Under the pieces are notes generated by a model. The model saw only the letters and a list, made by a program, of their open reading frames with translations, was not told the DNA's origin and did no database searches. DNA of 64,000 nt. It comes from Rufibacter roseolus. Lineage in GTDB: Bacteria; Bacteroidota; Bacteroidia; Cytophagales; Hymenobacteraceae. Position 1 is the first letter of the stretch; each line of letters begins with the position of its first letter. The stretch is taken from the NCBI RefSeq assembly GCF_017916365.1, contig NZ_JAFMSU010000003.1, forward strand, positions 930,001 to 994,000, written 5' to 3'. Below are positions 35,313 to 42,116 of the stretch, one piece after another. Position numbers and translations under genes: made by a program.

Positions 35313-37391
35313 ATGCCCCAAGACAAAACCATTAAACAGTTGTGCTTTTTAACCGGAAGTGTAAGCTGGGTCTTGCTATTGGTGAACGTGTTGTTTTTGG
35401 CCCGGCAAGGGTTTATGGGCGAAGCCAACGCGGCTACCCCGTACCTGAACAACGTGCTGTCGGTGGTGTTCATCCTTTCCGTTTTCCTGCACCAGCGCAC
35501 GCACGTGCCAATCCAGCGGAGCGCAGAGTTCACTTCTCCGCTTTGGGGCCTGTTTGTGAAAGGCGGCCTGGGCGCGTACGTCTGCCTGCTCCTCCACATA
35601 GGGTACCCAGGGCTGAACCAATATTGGGTGAACAGCCCTTACCTGCTGGATATCTTCTACCAGGTTTTCTTTGGGTTTCTGGTGTATTTTCTGGGCAAGG
35701 CTTTCTACACCTGGCGGCAGTTCATCCTCTACCACAAAACCAAGGATGTCCAGAGCCAGTGGAAGTGGTTTGAGATTTTGGTCTATCTCAGCCTTTTAGT
35801 GCCCCTGCTCAACGTGCAGTACATGAGCCACGTTTTCCTGATCCTGGACCTGGGCCTTTTGCTTGCCTACAGCCTGTACATGAGCGTGCACCAACGGTGG
35901 GTGGCTTTCCTCACCCTTGACAAGAAATGGAGCTGTATTTTCCTGCTCACGGCGGTACTGGCCTCTGGGGTGCTGTTCGCCAACTTCCTGTTCGTCTACG
36001 CCGATTCCCCAGAGCTGGAAGTGGACTACACAGACAACCCGTTCATCCTGCTGACCCTGGCTTTCGCGTTTCTGTACGCCCTGGTTTCTTTGCTGGTGGC
36101 ACTGTTCAGTTTACCCACGTCCCGGGTTTTTGAGCAGAGAAACGCCGACTTACTGAGCTTCCAGCGCCTGAGCCATACCATTCAGCAGGGCCAGAGCGAG
36201 GATGAGGTGTACAAAATGCTGTTTGAGAGTGCCGTGAAAGCCACCGGGGCAGATGCCGCCTGGCTGGAAATAAATGAGACCACCCACGTTGACACCTCTG
36301 AATTTACCGGTAACCCCATTGACACCCAGGTGCAGGAGGCAGTAAAGGCCTTGATGGAAAACGTGCAGGAGCAGGACAGTTCAACCCCGGACAGCGTGTA
36401 CGTGAACGGCGACCTGAACCTGCTGCCCGAGTTTAAAAGCCTGCCCAGCCTTTACAACTCCCTGCTGGTGGTGCCGCTGGTGTCGGCCAAACGGCGCTAC
36501 GGCGTGCTATACTTGCTGCTGGAAGTAGAACAGGGCTTTGACCCTGACTCTATCAGCGTGGTGCAGTCCTTCGCGAACCAGACGGTATTGACCATTGAGA
36601 ACCTGCGGCTCATGCAGGAATCCTTGCAGAATGAGCGCTACAAAGAGGAACTCAAGATCGCAAGCCTGGTGCAGGACCGCCTCAACCCCAAGAAATTCCC
36701 CACTGATACCTGGTTTGAGATCAGCACCTACGCCCAGGCGGCCAAAGAAGTGGGCGGCGACTTCTATGATTACCTGCAACTAAGCAAATCCCGCATCGCC
36801 ATTATCATTGGTGACGTATCTGGGAAAGGAATCTCGGCGGCGTTCCACATGGCGCAGATGAAAGGCATTTTCCACGGCCTCATGCAGCAGGACTTGCTGC
36901 CGGATGAGTTCATGATCCAGGCCAACAGTGCCCTGAGCCGCTGCCTGGAGCGCACCTCTTTTATCACGTCATCTCTGTATATCATTGATTATGAGATGCA
37001 GGGCGTTTCCTTTGCCCGGGCGGGCCATTGCCATACCCTTTACTACAACTCTATGATAGAAGATACGTTCTATTTCCAGACAGAGGGATTGGGTTTGGGC
37101 ATTATCAGGGACGCCTCTTACGCCAAGCGCATCCACCGGCTGCACTATGATTATAACCCCGGCGATGTGATGGTGATTTACACCGATGGCATTGTGGAGG
37201 CCCGTAACTCCCGCCAGGAGGAGTACGGCGAGGAGCGCCTGAAATACATGCTTTCCCAGACATATCATTTAGAGGCCGAGGACATCAAAAGCGCTATCAT
37301 CAACGATGTCAGCGACTTCAGCAATGATATCCTCTATGATGACCAAACCCTGCTTGTGATCAAGTTCAAACCGCGTCAACCTATTAATTAG
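35313..37391 (+). CDS. Membrane-bound PP2C-type (SpoIIE-like) serine/threonine phosphatase with GAF domain
   Basis: The 692-residue protein has about eight membrane segments in the first 270 residues. A GAF-like domain follows (about 285-440, with FQRLSHTIQQGQSEDEVYKMLFESAVKATGADAAWLEI). Then a helical linker leads to a SpoIIE/PPM phosphatase domain (about 465-690). Metal-binding motifs are visible: AKEVGGDFYDY, IIIGDVSGKGISAAF, and a late VIYTDGIVEARN with DDQTLLVIKF. Its targets are probably phosphorylated STAS proteins, since a STAS gene and an anti-sigma-type kinase gene follow. It is the input end of a partner-switching module. Confidence 0.93.
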   Translation: MPQDKTIKQLCFLTGSVSWVLLLVNVLFLARQGFMGEANAATPYLNNVLSVVFILSVFLHQRTHVPIQRSAEFTSPLWGLFVKGGLGAYVCLLLHIGYPGLNQYWVNSPYLLDIFYQVFFGFLVYFLGKAFYTWRQFILYHKTKDVQSQWKWFEILVYLSLLVPLLNVQYMSHVFLILDLGLLLAYSLYMSVHQRWVAFLTLDKKWSCIFLLTAVLASGVLFANFLFVYADSPELEVDYTDNPFILLTLAFAFLYALVSLLVALFSLPTSRVFEQRNADLLSFQRLSHTIQQGQSEDEVYKMLFESAVKATGADAAWLEINETTHVDTSEFTGNPIDTQVQEAVKALMENVQEQDSSTPDSVYVNGDLNLLPEFKSLPSLYNSLLVVPLVSAKRRYGVLYLLLEVEQGFDPDSISVVQSFANQTVLTIENLRLMQESLQNERYKEELKIASLVQDRLNPKKFPTDTWFEISTYAQAAKEVGGDFYDYLQLSKSRIAIIIGDVSGKGISAAFHMAQMKGIFHGLMQQDLLPDEFMIQANSALSRCLERTSFITSSLYIIDYEMQGVSFARAGHCHTLYYNSMIEDTFYFQTEGLGLGIIRDASYAKRIHRLHYDYNPGDVMVIYTDGIVEARNSRQEEYGEERLKYMLSQTYHLEAEDIKSAIINDVSDFSNDILYDDQTLLVIKFKPRQPIN

Positions 37392-37411
37392 ATGATTCGT
37401 AAAGAAGCACG

Positions 37412-37750
37412 ATGAAAATAAAACATACTATCACAGACAACACCATCACCATCAGTTTAGATGGTGAGTTAGACGCCAGCTCCTCCGTGTTATTGGACGA
37501 AGAGCTCTCCAACCCCAGCATCATGATGTTTGGCAAGATCCTGGTGGACTGCAAAAACCTCAACTACATTTCCTCGGCCGGTTTAGGCGTGTTCATCTCG
37601 CACTTGCAGCGTTTTGAAGATGCTCAGATCAAGCTTATTTTCTTCAACATGCAGGAGAAAGTACGTAACGTGTTCGAGATTTTGGGGCTGGACCTGCTCA
37701 TGACCATCGTCTCTTCCTATGAAGAAGCCGTGACCATTGCCAATGACTAA
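37412..37750 (+). CDS. STAS-domain anti-sigma factor antagonist
   Basis: The 112-residue protein fits SpoIIAA/RsbV: a phosphorylatable serine in NLNYISSAGLGVFISHLQRF, preceded by an ISLDGELDASSS strand. When unphosphorylated, such proteins bind and neutralise an anti-sigma kinase. It lies 20 bases after the phosphatase, and its stop overlaps the kinase start. Confidence 0.94.
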   Translation: MKIKHTITDNTITISLDGELDASSSVLLDEELSNPSIMMFGKILVDCKNLNYISSAGLGVFISHLQRFEDAQIKLIFFNMQEKVRNVFEILGLDLLMTIVSSYEEAVTIAND

Positions 37751-38153
37751 TAAGATCCGGGTCAGTTGTGACAGGAAGAACCTTAAAATTATCCGCACCT
37801 TTGTGACGGATACCCTCTCTCCTGTCCACTTGTCTGAGATCACGTTAAACCAGATCATCCTGGCCGTAGACGAGATCTGCGCCAACCTGATCATCCACTC
37901 CAACAAGGAAGACAGCCAGAAAAACCTCTGCCTCACCATCAGGTATGATGACCGGGAAATTGTTTTTGAGCTGGAAGACAACGGCACCCCCTTTGTGCAG
38001 GCCAACTACAAAGCGCCTAACATCCATGACAACATAAAGGCGGGTAAAAAGGGGGGCGTGGGCGTGGCCCTGGTGAACCGGATCATGGACAAGGTAGAAT
38101 ACAGTGTGAAGGGGTCAACCAATATCTGCCGCATGCACAAACTCCTGGTGTAG
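37743..38153 (+). CDS. Anti-sigma regulatory factor, RsbW/SpoIIAB-like ATP-binding kinase
   Basis: This 136-residue HATPase_c protein has ILAVDEICANLIIHS (N-box), ELEDNGTPF (G1) and GKKGGVGVALVNRIMDKVEY (G2). It should phosphorylate the STAS partner and bind a sigma factor or other output protein. The ATG at 37743 overlaps the STAS gene by 8 bases; an upstream in-frame TTG was rejected. No sigma factor gene is adjacent, so the output is unknown. Confidence 0.93.
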   Translation: MTNKIRVSCDRKNLKIIRTFVTDTLSPVHLSEITLNQIILAVDEICANLIIHSNKEDSQKNLCLTIRYDDREIVFELEDNGTPFVQANYKAPNIHDNIKAGKKGGVGVALVNRIMDKVEYSVKGSTNICRMHKLLV

Positions 38154-38365: not shown

Positions 38366-40651
38366 ATGCGAGTTACTTCTTTGTATGTGGGCCTGAGTGC
38401 CCTGCTCCTATTCCAGTGTACCTCCCCTAAAAAGGCCGCGGAACCTGTTTTGCTCACCATTGGCCCAGAGAAAGTACCGGTCTCTGAGTTCGCTTACGTG
38501 TATGAGAAAAACAACAGCGCCGCAGACAGTGCTTTTTCCAGCGCCAGCGTAAACGAGTACCTGAACCTGTACACCAATTTCAAGCTGAAAGTGGCGGAGG
38601 CCAAGAGCCGCGGTCTGGATACCACCCAGGCGTTTAAAACAGAGCTGGGCGGTTACAAAGAACAACTGGCGCAACCTTTCCTCACGGAGAAAAGCGTAAC
38701 CGATCAACTAGTGCGCGAAGCCTACGAGCGCCTGAAGAAAGAAGTAAACGCCACCCACATTCTTGTTTCCGTGGACATGGAGGCCGATCCCAAAGACACG
38801 CTGGCCGCTTACCAAAAGATCATGGATTTGCGGAACCAGGCGGTAAACGGCACCCCGTTTGAGCAACTGGCCCAGCGTTTCTCTGAAGACCCGTCTGCCC
38901 GGGAGAACAACGGCAACTTAGGTTATTTCACTGCCCTGCAGATGGTATACCCTTTTGAGAACGCCGCCTTCAACACGCCGGTAGGTCAAATCTCGCAGCC
39001 GGTGAGAACCCGTTTTGGGTACCATATCATCAAAGTAAACGAAGTACGCCCGGCCCAGGGCGAGATCAAAGTGGCGCACATCATGGTGCGGGCGCAGCAA
39101 GGCCTGCCCAAAGCAGATTCCCTGGCCGCCAAGAAGAAGATTGACGAGATCTACAGCCGCGTCCTGCGCAAGGAAGACTGGAACAAACTCACCTCTCAGT
39201 TCTCAGAAGACGCCGCCTCGGCGGATAACGGCGGGGAGTTGCCTTGGTTTGGCACCGGCCGCATGATTCCTTCCTTTGAGGAAGCCGCTTTCGCCCTGGC
39301 GCAGCCGGGAGCCATCACGCCACCTGTGCAGACGGTTTACGGCTGGCACATCATCAAGCTGCTGGAGCGCAAAGAACTGCCGTCTTATGAAGAGATGGAG
39401 ACCTCGCTGCGGAACCGTATTGCCAAAGACTCGCGCTCTGAGCTGAACAAAGCCGCATTCCTGCGCCGCATCAAAGCCGAGAACAAGTTCCAGGAGAACC
39501 AGGCCATTAAAACGGCTACCCTCAAACTGGCAGATTCAACCCTGGTAACTGGCAAATGGAAATTCAGCGTGCCCGCTGAGCCCAAGAACCTGCCTACCGC
39601 TACGCTGTTCACCATTGCCGGTAAGCCCTATACCGTAGGGAGCTTTGCCACGTACATTGAGGCGAACCAGCGCGCCCGCCAGAACGTGTCTCCTTCCCAT
39701 GCCATGAACCTGCTCTATGACAAGTTTGTGGAAACCAGCCTGCTGGATTACGAGCGTGAGCACCTGGAGGAAAAACACCAGGATTACAAGATGCTGGTGA
39801 ACGAGTACCATGACGGCATCCTGCTGTTCCAGCTTATGGAGGAGAAGGTATGGGCCAAAGCAGTGGAGGACACCGTGGGCTTGAAAGCTTTCTTTGAGGC
39901 AAACAAAGCCAACTACATGTGGGGCGAGCGGGCCCAGGCTACCATCCTCAGCGCCGCCAACTCTGCTGTGATGAACCAAGCCAAAGCCCTGTTGGCTGCG
40001 GGTAGGTTCCCGTCTTCCAGACACAAGCAAATTGACCTGCTCTTTACCACCGGCGCAAATAAACTTTCCAATGCAGCCACGGCCCAGCTGGATCAGCTGG
40101 CTTCTACCATGCAGGCAGACTCTGCCCTCAGCCTGGATGTGACCGGTTACATTGACGCCCGCGAAAGCGCAAACCAGAGAAACTCAACCTTGGGAGCCCG
40201 CCGGGCCACTGCGGTGAAGAACTACCTGCAGCAGAAAGGGATTAAAGGAGAGCGCATTAAGATTGTGCCTTCTACGGCCCAATTAGCCGGAACCCGCCGT
40301 GTGGCCGTGACCGTGTATACCTCAGATCTGCAAGCCATGGCCGAACAGTTAAACCAAAGCAACCCGCTGGCCCTGCAGGTTACTTCGCGCAAGTTCCAGC
40401 GCGGCGAGAACAAGGTGCTGGATGCGGTTACCTGGAAGCCGGGTACCTACAACCTCACCCAGGATGGCCGCATTCTCTGGATCAAGATTGACCAGGTAGA
40501 TCCGCCTACCCCTAAGAAACTGAACGAGACCCGCGGCGTGGTGATCTCAGATTACCAGAATTACCTGGAGCAGGAATGGATCAAAGAACTGCGCCAGAAA
40601 TACCCGGTAAGCATCAACCAGCCAGAGGTGCAGAAGCTTATTAAGCACTAA
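38366..40651 (+). CDS. Peptidylprolyl isomerase lipoprotein with two parvulin domains and an inserted OmpA-like domain
   Basis: From MRVTSLYVGLSALLLFQC, a lipoprotein signal, the 761-residue protein has a SurA-like N-terminal region. Two PPIC domains follow (about 130-225, ATHILVSVD; about 235-335, VAHIMVRAQQG), both with the terminal FGYHIIKV or YGWHIIKL histidine pattern. A second SurA-like helical region leads to an OmpA-C-like segment (about 555-650): QIDLLFTTGANKLSNAA, DVTGYIDARES, NSTLGARRATAVKNYLQQKG. The last 100 residues return to the PPIase family. It probably acts as a periplasmic outer-membrane-protein chaperone that can touch peptidoglycan. The ATG was chosen over an upstream TTG. 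Confidence 0.88.
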   Translation: MRVTSLYVGLSALLLFQCTSPKKAAEPVLLTIGPEKVPVSEFAYVYEKNNSAADSAFSSASVNEYLNLYTNFKLKVAEAKSRGLDTTQAFKTELGGYKEQLAQPFLTEKSVTDQLVREAYERLKKEVNATHILVSVDMEADPKDTLAAYQKIMDLRNQAVNGTPFEQLAQRFSEDPSARENNGNLGYFTALQMVYPFENAAFNTPVGQISQPVRTRFGYHIIKVNEVRPAQGEIKVAHIMVRAQQGLPKADSLAAKKKIDEIYSRVLRKEDWNKLTSQFSEDAASADNGGELPWFGTGRMIPSFEEAAFALAQPGAITPPVQTVYGWHIIKLLERKELPSYEEMETSLRNRIAKDSRSELNKAAFLRRIKAENKFQENQAIKTATLKLADSTLVTGKWKFSVPAEPKNLPTATLFTIAGKPYTVGSFATYIEANQRARQNVSPSHAMNLLYDKFVETSLLDYEREHLEEKHQDYKMLVNEYHDGILLFQLMEEKVWAKAVEDTVGLKAFFEANKANYMWGERAQATILSAANSAVMNQAKALLAAGRFPSSRHKQIDLLFTTGANKLSNAATAQLDQLASTMQADSALSLDVTGYIDARESANQRNSTLGARRATAVKNYLQQKGIKGERIKIVPSTAQLAGTRRVAVTVYTSDLQAMAEQLNQSNPLALQVTSRKFQRGENKVLDAVTWKPGTYNLTQDGRILWIKIDQVDPPTPKKLNETRGVVISDYQNYLEQEWIKELRQKYPVSINQPEVQKLIKH

Positions 40652-40763: not shown

Positions 40764-42116
40764 ATGAAAATCAGAATTTCTTATTCTTCTTTCCTTAAAA
40801 GCCTCCTTCTACTGATTACCCTGGGCACTCTGACGCAAAACGCAGAGGCCCAGCAAGCTGCCCTGATAGATAACATTGTGGCCAAAGTAGGAGGGCATAT
40901 CGTGTTACGGTCAGAGCTGGAGTTTCAGCACGCCAACGCGGTAAGCCAGGGCTATAAATCCCCTAACCTGCGCTGCGAGATCCTGCGCTCACTTGTCCAG
41001 AATAAACTATTGCTGGCCCGTGCCGAGGTGGACTCTGTCATTGTAGAAGAAAACACCATCAATGCCGAGCTGGAAGGCCGCCTGAACCAGTTCATTGCCC
41101 AGATTGGGAGCCAGGAGAAACTGGAGGCGTACTACAACAAGCCCATGAGCGAGATCCGCAGTGACTTGCGCCGCAGCCTCAAAGAGCAGATGACCGTTCA
41201 GAAAATGGAGCGCGAGATTGCCGGCAAAATGAAAGTGACACCCAAAGAGGTACAGCAGTATTTCAACCGTATTCCCAAAGACAGCTTGCCTTATTTCTCC
41301 ACCGAGGTAGAAGTAGGCCAGATTGTGAAGATTGCGCAGATTGGAACCGCCCAGAAACAGGCAGCCCGCGAACAGCTGGAAGGCATCAGAAAACGCATCT
41401 TAGCTGGTGAGGACTTCGCCACGCTGGCCCGGCAGTTTTCGCAGGACCCGGGTTCCGGGGCTGCCGGCGGAGAGCTGGGCTTCTTCAAGAAACGCGAGTT
41501 GGTACCTGAATACGAGGCAGCCGCTCTTAAACTGCAGCCCGGCGAGACTTCTCCCGTGATTGAGTCCATGTTCGGTTTCCACATCATCCAGTTGATTGAG
41601 CGCCGCGGCGAGGAGTTCAACACCCGCCACATCCTCATCAAGCCGGCTACAGCTCAGGTAGACATGCAGCAAACCGCCCGTCTGCTGGACAGCATCAGAA
41701 CCCGCATCATGTCTGACAGCCTAACTTTCGCCAAAGCGGCCAAGGAATTCTCAGATGACATGTCTTCCAAGGGGAACGGCGGTATGATCACCATGCCTAA
41801 CAGCCCTACCACTTACATTCCGGTGGATAAAGTGGACCCGTCTATCTTCTTCGTGATTGATACCATGCAGGTAGGTTCCATCAGCGGTCCGCTTCCGTAC
41901 CGTACCGAGGACGGGAAAGAGGCCATGCGCATTCTGTATCTGAAATCAAAGGCTGCCCCGCACCAGGCCAACATGCGTGACGATTACCAGAAGATTGCCG
42001 CTGCGGCCCTAGCCGACAAACGCAACAAAGCCATCAGTGAGTGGTTTGAGAAAAACAAAGAAACGGTGTTCGTAGACATCGCCCCAGATTTCAAAACCTG
42101 TAGTTTAGACGAATAA
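40764..42116 (+). CDS. SurA-like periplasmic peptidylprolyl isomerase
   Basis: The 450-residue protein has a signal peptide (MKIRISYSSFLKSLLLLITL ... NAEAQQ). The SurA N-terminal domain (IDNIVAKVGGHIVLRSELEFQH) is followed by two parvulin domains: VEVGQIVKIAQ ... GGELGFFKKRELVPEYEAAALKL ... MFGFHIIQLIE, and TRHILIKPATA ... SDDMSSKGNGGMI. It is expected to chaperone outer-membrane proteins. It follows the OmpA-containing PPIase by 112 bases and precedes the MoxR ATPase by 10 bases. Confidence 0.93.
   Translation: MKIRISYSSFLKSLLLLITLGTLTQNAEAQQAALIDNIVAKVGGHIVLRSELEFQHANAVSQGYKSPNLRCEILRSLVQNKLLLARAEVDSVIVEENTINAELEGRLNQFIAQIGSQEKLEAYYNKPMSEIRSDLRRSLKEQMTVQKMEREIAGKMKVTPKEVQQYFNRIPKDSLPYFSTEVEVGQIVKIAQIGTAQKQAAREQLEGIRKRILAGEDFATLARQFSQDPGSGAAGGELGFFKKRELVPEYEAAALKLQPGETSPVIESMFGFHIIQLIERRGEEFNTRHILIKPATAQVDMQQTARLLDSIRTRIMSDSLTFAKAAKEFSDDMSSKGNGGMITMPNSPTTYIPVDKVDPSIFFVIDTMQVGSISGPLPYRTEDGKEAMRILYLKSKAAPHQANMRDDYQKIAAAALADKRNKAISEWFEKNKETVFVDIAPDFKTCSLDE

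Follow-up and report, generated by a model that had tools for sequence, protein, structure and literature searches.

A SurA-like PPIC protein of Rufibacter roseolus with an OmpA-like domain nested in its C-terminal region

The locus and its neighbours

In this work, we analysed a 64,000-nucleotide stretch of the Rufibacter roseolus genome (hereafter, the window) and found a gene (38366..40651, +) that encodes a SurA-like PPIC protein of 761 aa, a probable lipoprotein, with a nested OmpA-like domain (translation and Pfam). The N-terminus of this translation reads MRVTSLYVGLSALLLFQC, and its signal peptide (38366..38419, +; from sequence) ends with the probable lipobox LLFQ-C18. Pfam matched Rotamase_3 in two stretches (E 7.2e-55) that represent two parvulin (PPIC) domains. 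According to Pfam, the alignment, and fold comparison of a structural model, the first spans residues 122-229 (38729..39052, +) and the second spans residues 232-338 (39059..39379, +). In alignment A2, His131 and His220 of the first PPIC domain are invariant, as is His238 of the second, and His328 is nearly so. At the other end of the protein, the AlphaFold2 model has a C-terminal helix at residues 723-745 (40532..40600, +). The protein of Rufibacter hautae (Hymenobacteraceae, Cytophagales) is 95% identical to the window protein.

Among solved structures, Escherichia coli SurA (1m5y) is the best relative of the window protein by sequence (E 1.9e-21) and is also at the top by Foldseek; both proteins have two PPIC domains. 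Structural alignments of the model to SurA-like chains cover residues ~25-757, but with large rmsd. Unlike SurA, the window protein scores only 95.3 bits against the NCBIfam SurA equivalog NF008038 (cut-off 394), is a probable lipoprotein, and appears to contain a third, degenerate parvulin-like domain that holds the OmpA insert. The SurA_N family is absent from its Pfam matches.

Downstream of this gene and on its strand lie genes for a SurA-like protein of 450 aa with two PPIC domains (40764..42116, +; Pfam) and for a MoxR ATPase. We counted both neighbours in the named loci whose downstream sequence covers 2.5 kb or more. SurA follows on the same strand in 18/19 loci bearing the OmpA insert and in 30/33 insert-free loci, and MoxR does so in 18/19 and 28/33, respectively. 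In Bacteroides thetaiotaomicron, SurA co-purifies with BamA (excerpt of PMC12578637). Together with the SurA neighbour, this is support, purely by association, for a part in the biogenesis of outer-membrane proteins.

The surroundings of the gene pair differ among loci. In eight insert-free loci that we read, including L023, L024, L028, and L030, a gene of ~290 aa with a lipoprotein-like start is located between the large PPIase gene and the SurA gene. The PPIase-SurA gap is 102-453 bp in the Hymenobacteraceae loci L005-L022, and this family, including the window, has no room for such a gene. Directly upstream of the PPIase gene and on the same strand, the window has a trio of genes for a SpoIIE phosphatase, a STAS protein, and a HATPase (35313-38153). 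This trio is found in 18/18 named Hymenobacteraceae loci (L005-L022); among the other named loci, only L051 matches any of the three (STAS and SpoIIE).

The nested OmpA-like domain and its host

An initial annotation, made from the letters of the window, had proposed that an OmpA-like segment interrupts this SurA-like PPIC protein near its C-terminus. Profile searches, alignment, and structure prediction all uphold this claim, and the three peptides quoted in its support are all found in the 761-aa translation. The HMM search that it recommended matched PF00691 (OmpA) at residues 559-634 (44.5 bits, cut-off 27.2; E 2.1e-11) in addition to Rotamase_3, and a search with the insert region alone gave E 1.4e-12 for PF00691. 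Among solved structures, those of Pal come closest to the insert by sequence (1oap, E 1.4e-6), and Pal was again the best match of a profile of 99 segments from relatives (E 5.8e-16). PF00691 was matched at E <= 0.01 in 83 of these 99 scanned segments, a set that includes four rows without a true insert (L168, L169, L175, and L176).

The AlphaFold2 model of the window protein (alignment of 86 sequences; mean pLDDT 93.8, pTM 0.74) predicts an OmpA fold at residues 551-652 (40016..40321, +), with the OmpA order of strand, helix, strand, helix, strand, and strand. These residues align with the OmpA domain 9uu2 over 102 residues (Z 15.1, rmsd 2.2). The host protein resumes at residue ~655, and the stretch after the OmpA fold comprises 107 residues, in agreement with the last 100 residues proposed earlier. 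Whether all homologues have a different fold at this position was also looked at, and the claim stood.

The models also suggest what kind of domain is interrupted, and this had been missed before. In the window model, the OmpA fold is flanked by a strand and a helix on one side (residues 522-530 and 533-545; 39929..40000, +) and by a helix and three strands on the other (helix 655-662, strands 670-678, 693-699, and 702-712; 40328..40501, +). In the model of the insert-free homologue L151 (pLDDT 93.2), the host elements form one continuous run (strand 518-526, helix 529-540, helix 544-553, strands 557-564, 579-585, and 588-598). Because the order of these elements in both models is that of a parvulin, we read the host segment as a third, degenerate parvulin copy. 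Because the same elements flank the OmpA fold in the window model and are unbroken in L151, the insertion point in these models is between helices 1 and 2 of the third parvulin-like domain, so that the insertion described in the initial annotation is upheld and can be placed more exactly.

Sequence evidence for the putative third copy is weak. Its profile-profile match to the first PPIC domain has a probability of 9.9 and an E-value of 0.0032, and a single one of 34 insert-free third-domain segments passes Pfam (L162, Rotamase_2, 28.6 bits against a cut-off of 27). The assignment is based on the element order in two confident models, together with L162. The sequence of the window protein has other residues where the first two copies have their two histidines, and we describe this third domain as catalytically dead.

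The insert shares with Pal and the OmpA C-terminal domain (PF00691) the fold, the profile match, and the set of Asp, Asn, and Arg discussed below; it differs from them in being nested in another domain of a chaperone-like protein and in having relatives that often lack the Asp. The nested OmpA domain and its SurA-like host are known kinds of part in an arrangement not found in the literature searched. Our search of the open-licence PubMed Central literature, which covered the architecture, its parts, and a Porphyromonas homologue, found no PPIase with an inserted OmpA domain, and no experiment on the window protein or an orthologue was found in the same literature.

Distribution, origin, and constraint of the insert

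Matches to the window protein were found in all 60 Hymenobacteraceae genomes sampled, and the insert is present in all 47 aligned loci of this family (12 from the genus and 35 others). In the order Cytophagales, we sampled 148 genomes, and 124 of them match at E <= 1e-50. Of the matching genomes, 113 are outside the family, and 110 could be aligned after three with fragments were left out; the insert is present in 96 and absent in 14 of the 110. The distribution follows family boundaries, such that 13 of the 17 families of the order other than Hymenobacteraceae always have the insert, four never have it, and none is mixed. Outside the order, 62 of the 63 aligned genomes of the class (43 and 20 in two sets) have no insert. 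The exception is G221, the only genome sampled of its order, whose insert is canonical, lies at the same site (E 4.9e-21), and rules out a complete absence of the insert from the class outside the order. The architecture, which the initial annotation had suggested looking for in other Bacteroidota, is therefore common in Cytophagales, and nearly all relatives outside this order are insert-free. The insert of G221 (L277) is the most canonical among those scored singly, covering the full PF00691 model with 75.3 bits; its next best OmpA match within G221 has 45% identity.

Of the loci that come from named records, the insert is present in 19 and absent in 36, with two short ones unscored. The 19 are from Hymenobacteraceae and one Cytophagia metagenome genome, and the 36 are mostly from metagenome genomes labelled Flavobacteriales, Bacteroidales, Chitinophagales, and similar. 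In the homologues, a block of ~100 residues is cleanly present or absent at a single site, and the remainder of the protein can be aligned. The chance of a spurious match or an assembly artefact is close to nil, and no point in favour of it was found. The same insert is seen in 155 aligned homologues from many genomes, Pfam and the predicted fold agree, and the alignment of independent genomes refutes this explanation.

An OmpA-like domain is also found in the family f91, which belongs to another class of the phylum. In f91, 19 of 21 genomes have a match to the window protein, and all 18 rows that are long enough to align (one fragment was dropped) have the domain; Pfam gives scores for two of these rows, with 31.1 bits in L165 (above cut-off) and 16.9 bits in L172 (below cut-off). 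As read from the sequences, the junction in f91 is shifted, with the host helix-2 segment before the OmpA domain and none in the segment after it, whereas helix 2 comes after the OmpA domain in Cytophagales (model) and in G221 (sequence). In phylogenetic trees, f91 is separated from Cytophagales on supported branches. Based on the shifted junction, the f91 domain is probably a second, separate insertion into the same host domain, located after helix 2, although a later shift of the junction is possible instead. If true, repeated insertion into one dead domain would point to a benefit of this position. For the Cytophagales-type inserts, the tests of a single clade gave p 0.46 (46 rows) and p 0.43 (56 rows, including G221). 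These tests favour neither answer, and the inserts may have a single origin, which fits them. The unconstrained trees require six or seven changes of the insert trait.

No part of the protein is less conserved than the insert. Its mean identity to the window protein is 31.5% (94 insert-bearing rows), the lowest of all segments, compared with 41.7% for the short strand-helix stretch before the insert and 53-65% for the others (N-terminal, PPIC, middle, and C-terminal). In a set of 11 Rufibacter/Sabulibacter genes, the insert has a median dN/dS of 0.19 (44 of 55 pairs usable), approximately four times that of the PPIC part (residues 26-338; 0.049, 52/55 pairs), and that of the C-terminal part is 0.083 (44/55 pairs). 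These values indicate that the insert is kept by purifying selection in Rufibacter/Sabulibacter, under looser constraint than the other parts.

Proposed wall binding, probable lipid anchor, and possible function

PorE, a Bacteroidota lipoprotein of type IX secretion, provides a reference for the binding site. The side chains of its Asp576, Asn584, and Arg591 hold diaminopimelate, in which the Arg contacts a carboxylate and the Asp and Asn contact the amine (excerpt of PMC7192894). Alignment to Pal assigns the equivalent residues of the window protein as Asp597 (40154..40156, +), Asn606 (40181..40183, +), and Arg613 (40202..40204, +). The Asp and Arg noted in the initial annotation are thus present, and the Asn can be added as the third position. 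Like the window protein, PorE has an OmpA domain with these three residues; unlike it, the PorE domain, solved with a peptidoglycan fragment, is C-terminal and part of a different host protein (excerpt of PMC7192894). The presence of the three PorE residues makes wall tethering by the nested domain of the window protein plausible, as the initial annotation had suggested, and in the window organism this domain would most likely serve as a wall anchor.

The three residues vary among relatives. All of them are present in the 15 rows from Rufibacter, Sabulibacter, and the same genus (15/15). Across the 155 inserts, the Arg is nearly universal (154/155) and the Asp is found in 79, leaving 76 without it; it is missing in all three named Hymenobacter, where the residue is Lys, as it is in Solirubrum. 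In the alignment of the insert region, two positions are conserved in at least 90% of the rows, namely, R613 and N663, and the latter belongs to the host. The loop with the Asn is badly aligned (of 95 rows, 20 have Asn and 68 have a gap), so this position cannot be scored family-wide. In f91, the Asp is found in 17/18 and the Arg in 18/18 rows, and the canonical insert of G221 keeps both.

A precedent for loss of the Asp is Tp0624 of Treponema pallidum, which resembles the Asp-less relatives in being a multi-domain protein with a divergent OmpA domain that keeps the Arg; its Asp is replaced by Ala, and it does not bind diaminopimelate (excerpt of PMC5104382). The same excerpt places the OmpA domain of Tp0624 at the C-terminus, unlike that of the window protein, and describes its other two domains as previously uncharacterised or repurposed, not PPIC. 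Given this precedent and the Asp count of 79/155, wall tethering is not a general property of the family, and wall binding is doubtful for about half of it.

With regard to the lipid anchor, the Gln at position -1 of the lipobox (LLFQC) is unusual, and relatives have LLAGC and similar motifs, a comparison made by sequence only. The window protein is probably a lipoprotein. Its first six residues after Cys18 include no acidic residue, and the sign for surface export of lipoproteins is at least two acidic residues among these six (excerpt of PMC12578637). Because this sign is missing, the window protein probably faces the periplasm. Among the 155 insert-bearing proteins, a script recognized a lipobox in 127, with two acidic residues after the Cys in none of these (0/127). 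Reading by eye added nine more (136/155) and left 17 soluble-looking proteins, five of which carry the Asp, and two that could not be judged. The soluble-looking proteins indicate that lipid and insert are not strictly linked. For the insert-free proteins, the script flagged a lipobox in 10/96, with several wrong by eye and a few missed, and most of these homologues are probably not lipoproteins. On the tree, a lipid-insert link found no independent support in four independent pairs on supported branches (median p 1), and the tree-based test of a link between Asp and lipid gave none either. The association of lipid and insert is at the clade level only, and we do not count it, or that of Asp and lipid, as evidence of co-selection. 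Excerpted accounts of BamM (Flavobacterium) and BamJ/BamK (Bacteroides), which are isomerase subunits of the Bacteroidota BAM, describe proteins that are similar to the window protein in having an isomerase fold at the Bacteroidota outer membrane; BamJ/BamK have an acidic surface-export signal and are part of an extracellular dome, whereas the window protein has no such signal.

Taken together, our preferred reading, with a probability of about 0.58, is that the window protein is a periplasm-facing outer-membrane lipoprotein chaperone with two intact PPIC domains whose OmpA insert probably holds meso-diaminopimelate, making it a fixed folding station. The protein would probably bind unfolded outer-membrane proteins jointly with the SurA encoded next door, and its nested domain would probably hold meso-diaminopimelate via Asp597, Asn606, and Arg613. 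Its N-terminal lipid would sit in the outer membrane and its nested domain would grip the wall, fixing the station between both, in contrast to a freely diffusing SurA. The gene, its domains, the nesting, the conservation, and the motif are computed results, and lipidation, outer-membrane location, chaperone role, wall binding, and an advantage of tethering are inferred from them. This reading is supported by the OmpA profile and fold, the clean presence or absence of the block, the three PorE residues, purifying selection, a lipobox without surface signal, co-location with SurA and MoxR, SurA-BamA co-purification, the probable second insertion of f91 with Asp and Arg, and the canonical insert of G221. 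It is weakened by the 76/155 inserts without Asp, the low conservation of the insert, the 17 soluble-looking insert-bearing proteins, and the lack of independent tree support for a lipid-insert or lipid-Asp link.

The uneven retention of the two residues (Asp in 79/155 against Arg in 154/155) and the fast evolution of the insert, the fastest of all segments, also fit a tentative and somewhat unlikely alternative, in which the insert of most of the family no longer holds diaminopimelate and serves as a structural spacer or as a surface for a partner, such as BAM, SurA, or a client, with the Rufibacter Asp being a remnant. Tp0624, in which diaminopimelate is unbound by a domain with Arg and without Asp, offers a precedent (excerpt of PMC5104382). 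However, the complete set of Asp, Asn, and Arg in the window protein and in 15/15 Rufibacter, Sabulibacter, and same-genus rows, as well as the Asp and Arg kept in f91 (17/18 and 18/18) and G221, argue against this alternative. The insert could also be a client-binding or regulatory addition that replaced the job of the dead third domain and has no link to the wall. The lack in the host domain of the histidines seen in the other two copies (model and sequence) is in line with this, as is the known client binding by a PPIase domain of E. coli SurA (excerpt of PMC13067283). The intact diaminopimelate residues of the window protein, which client binding would not need, speak against this reading, and we consider it very unlikely.

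A bolder form of the tethering hypothesis, which we regard as improbable, is that the chaperone was wall-tethered twice by OmpA insertion, at two junctions, and that the Asp-less pocket was re-aimed at another carboxylate. Where the Asp is lost and the Arg is kept, as in Hymenobacter, one candidate for the new target would be the C-terminus of a client outer-membrane protein.

To our knowledge, the positioning of periplasmic chaperones relative to the wall and BAM has hardly been studied outside Proteobacteria. Structures of the Bacteroidota BAM date from 2025 only. A chaperone that combines a probable lipid anchor with a probable wall-binding module would offer a natural example of a positioned folding station, and a ready comparison set exists in the relatives that have the Asp, that lack it, and that lack the entire insert.

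Several relatives have other changes in the gene. In one genome of the same genus (G017:C1:2345952-2348227), the orthologue is found as two overlapping pieces, one with an in-frame TAG, which represents a broken gene or a sequencing error. Among the insert-free homologues, L281 and L291 (f30) have ~60 extra residues around positions 341-412 of the query, and L279, L287, L288, and L292 (f58 and f43) have ~45-50 extra residues in the first PPIC region.
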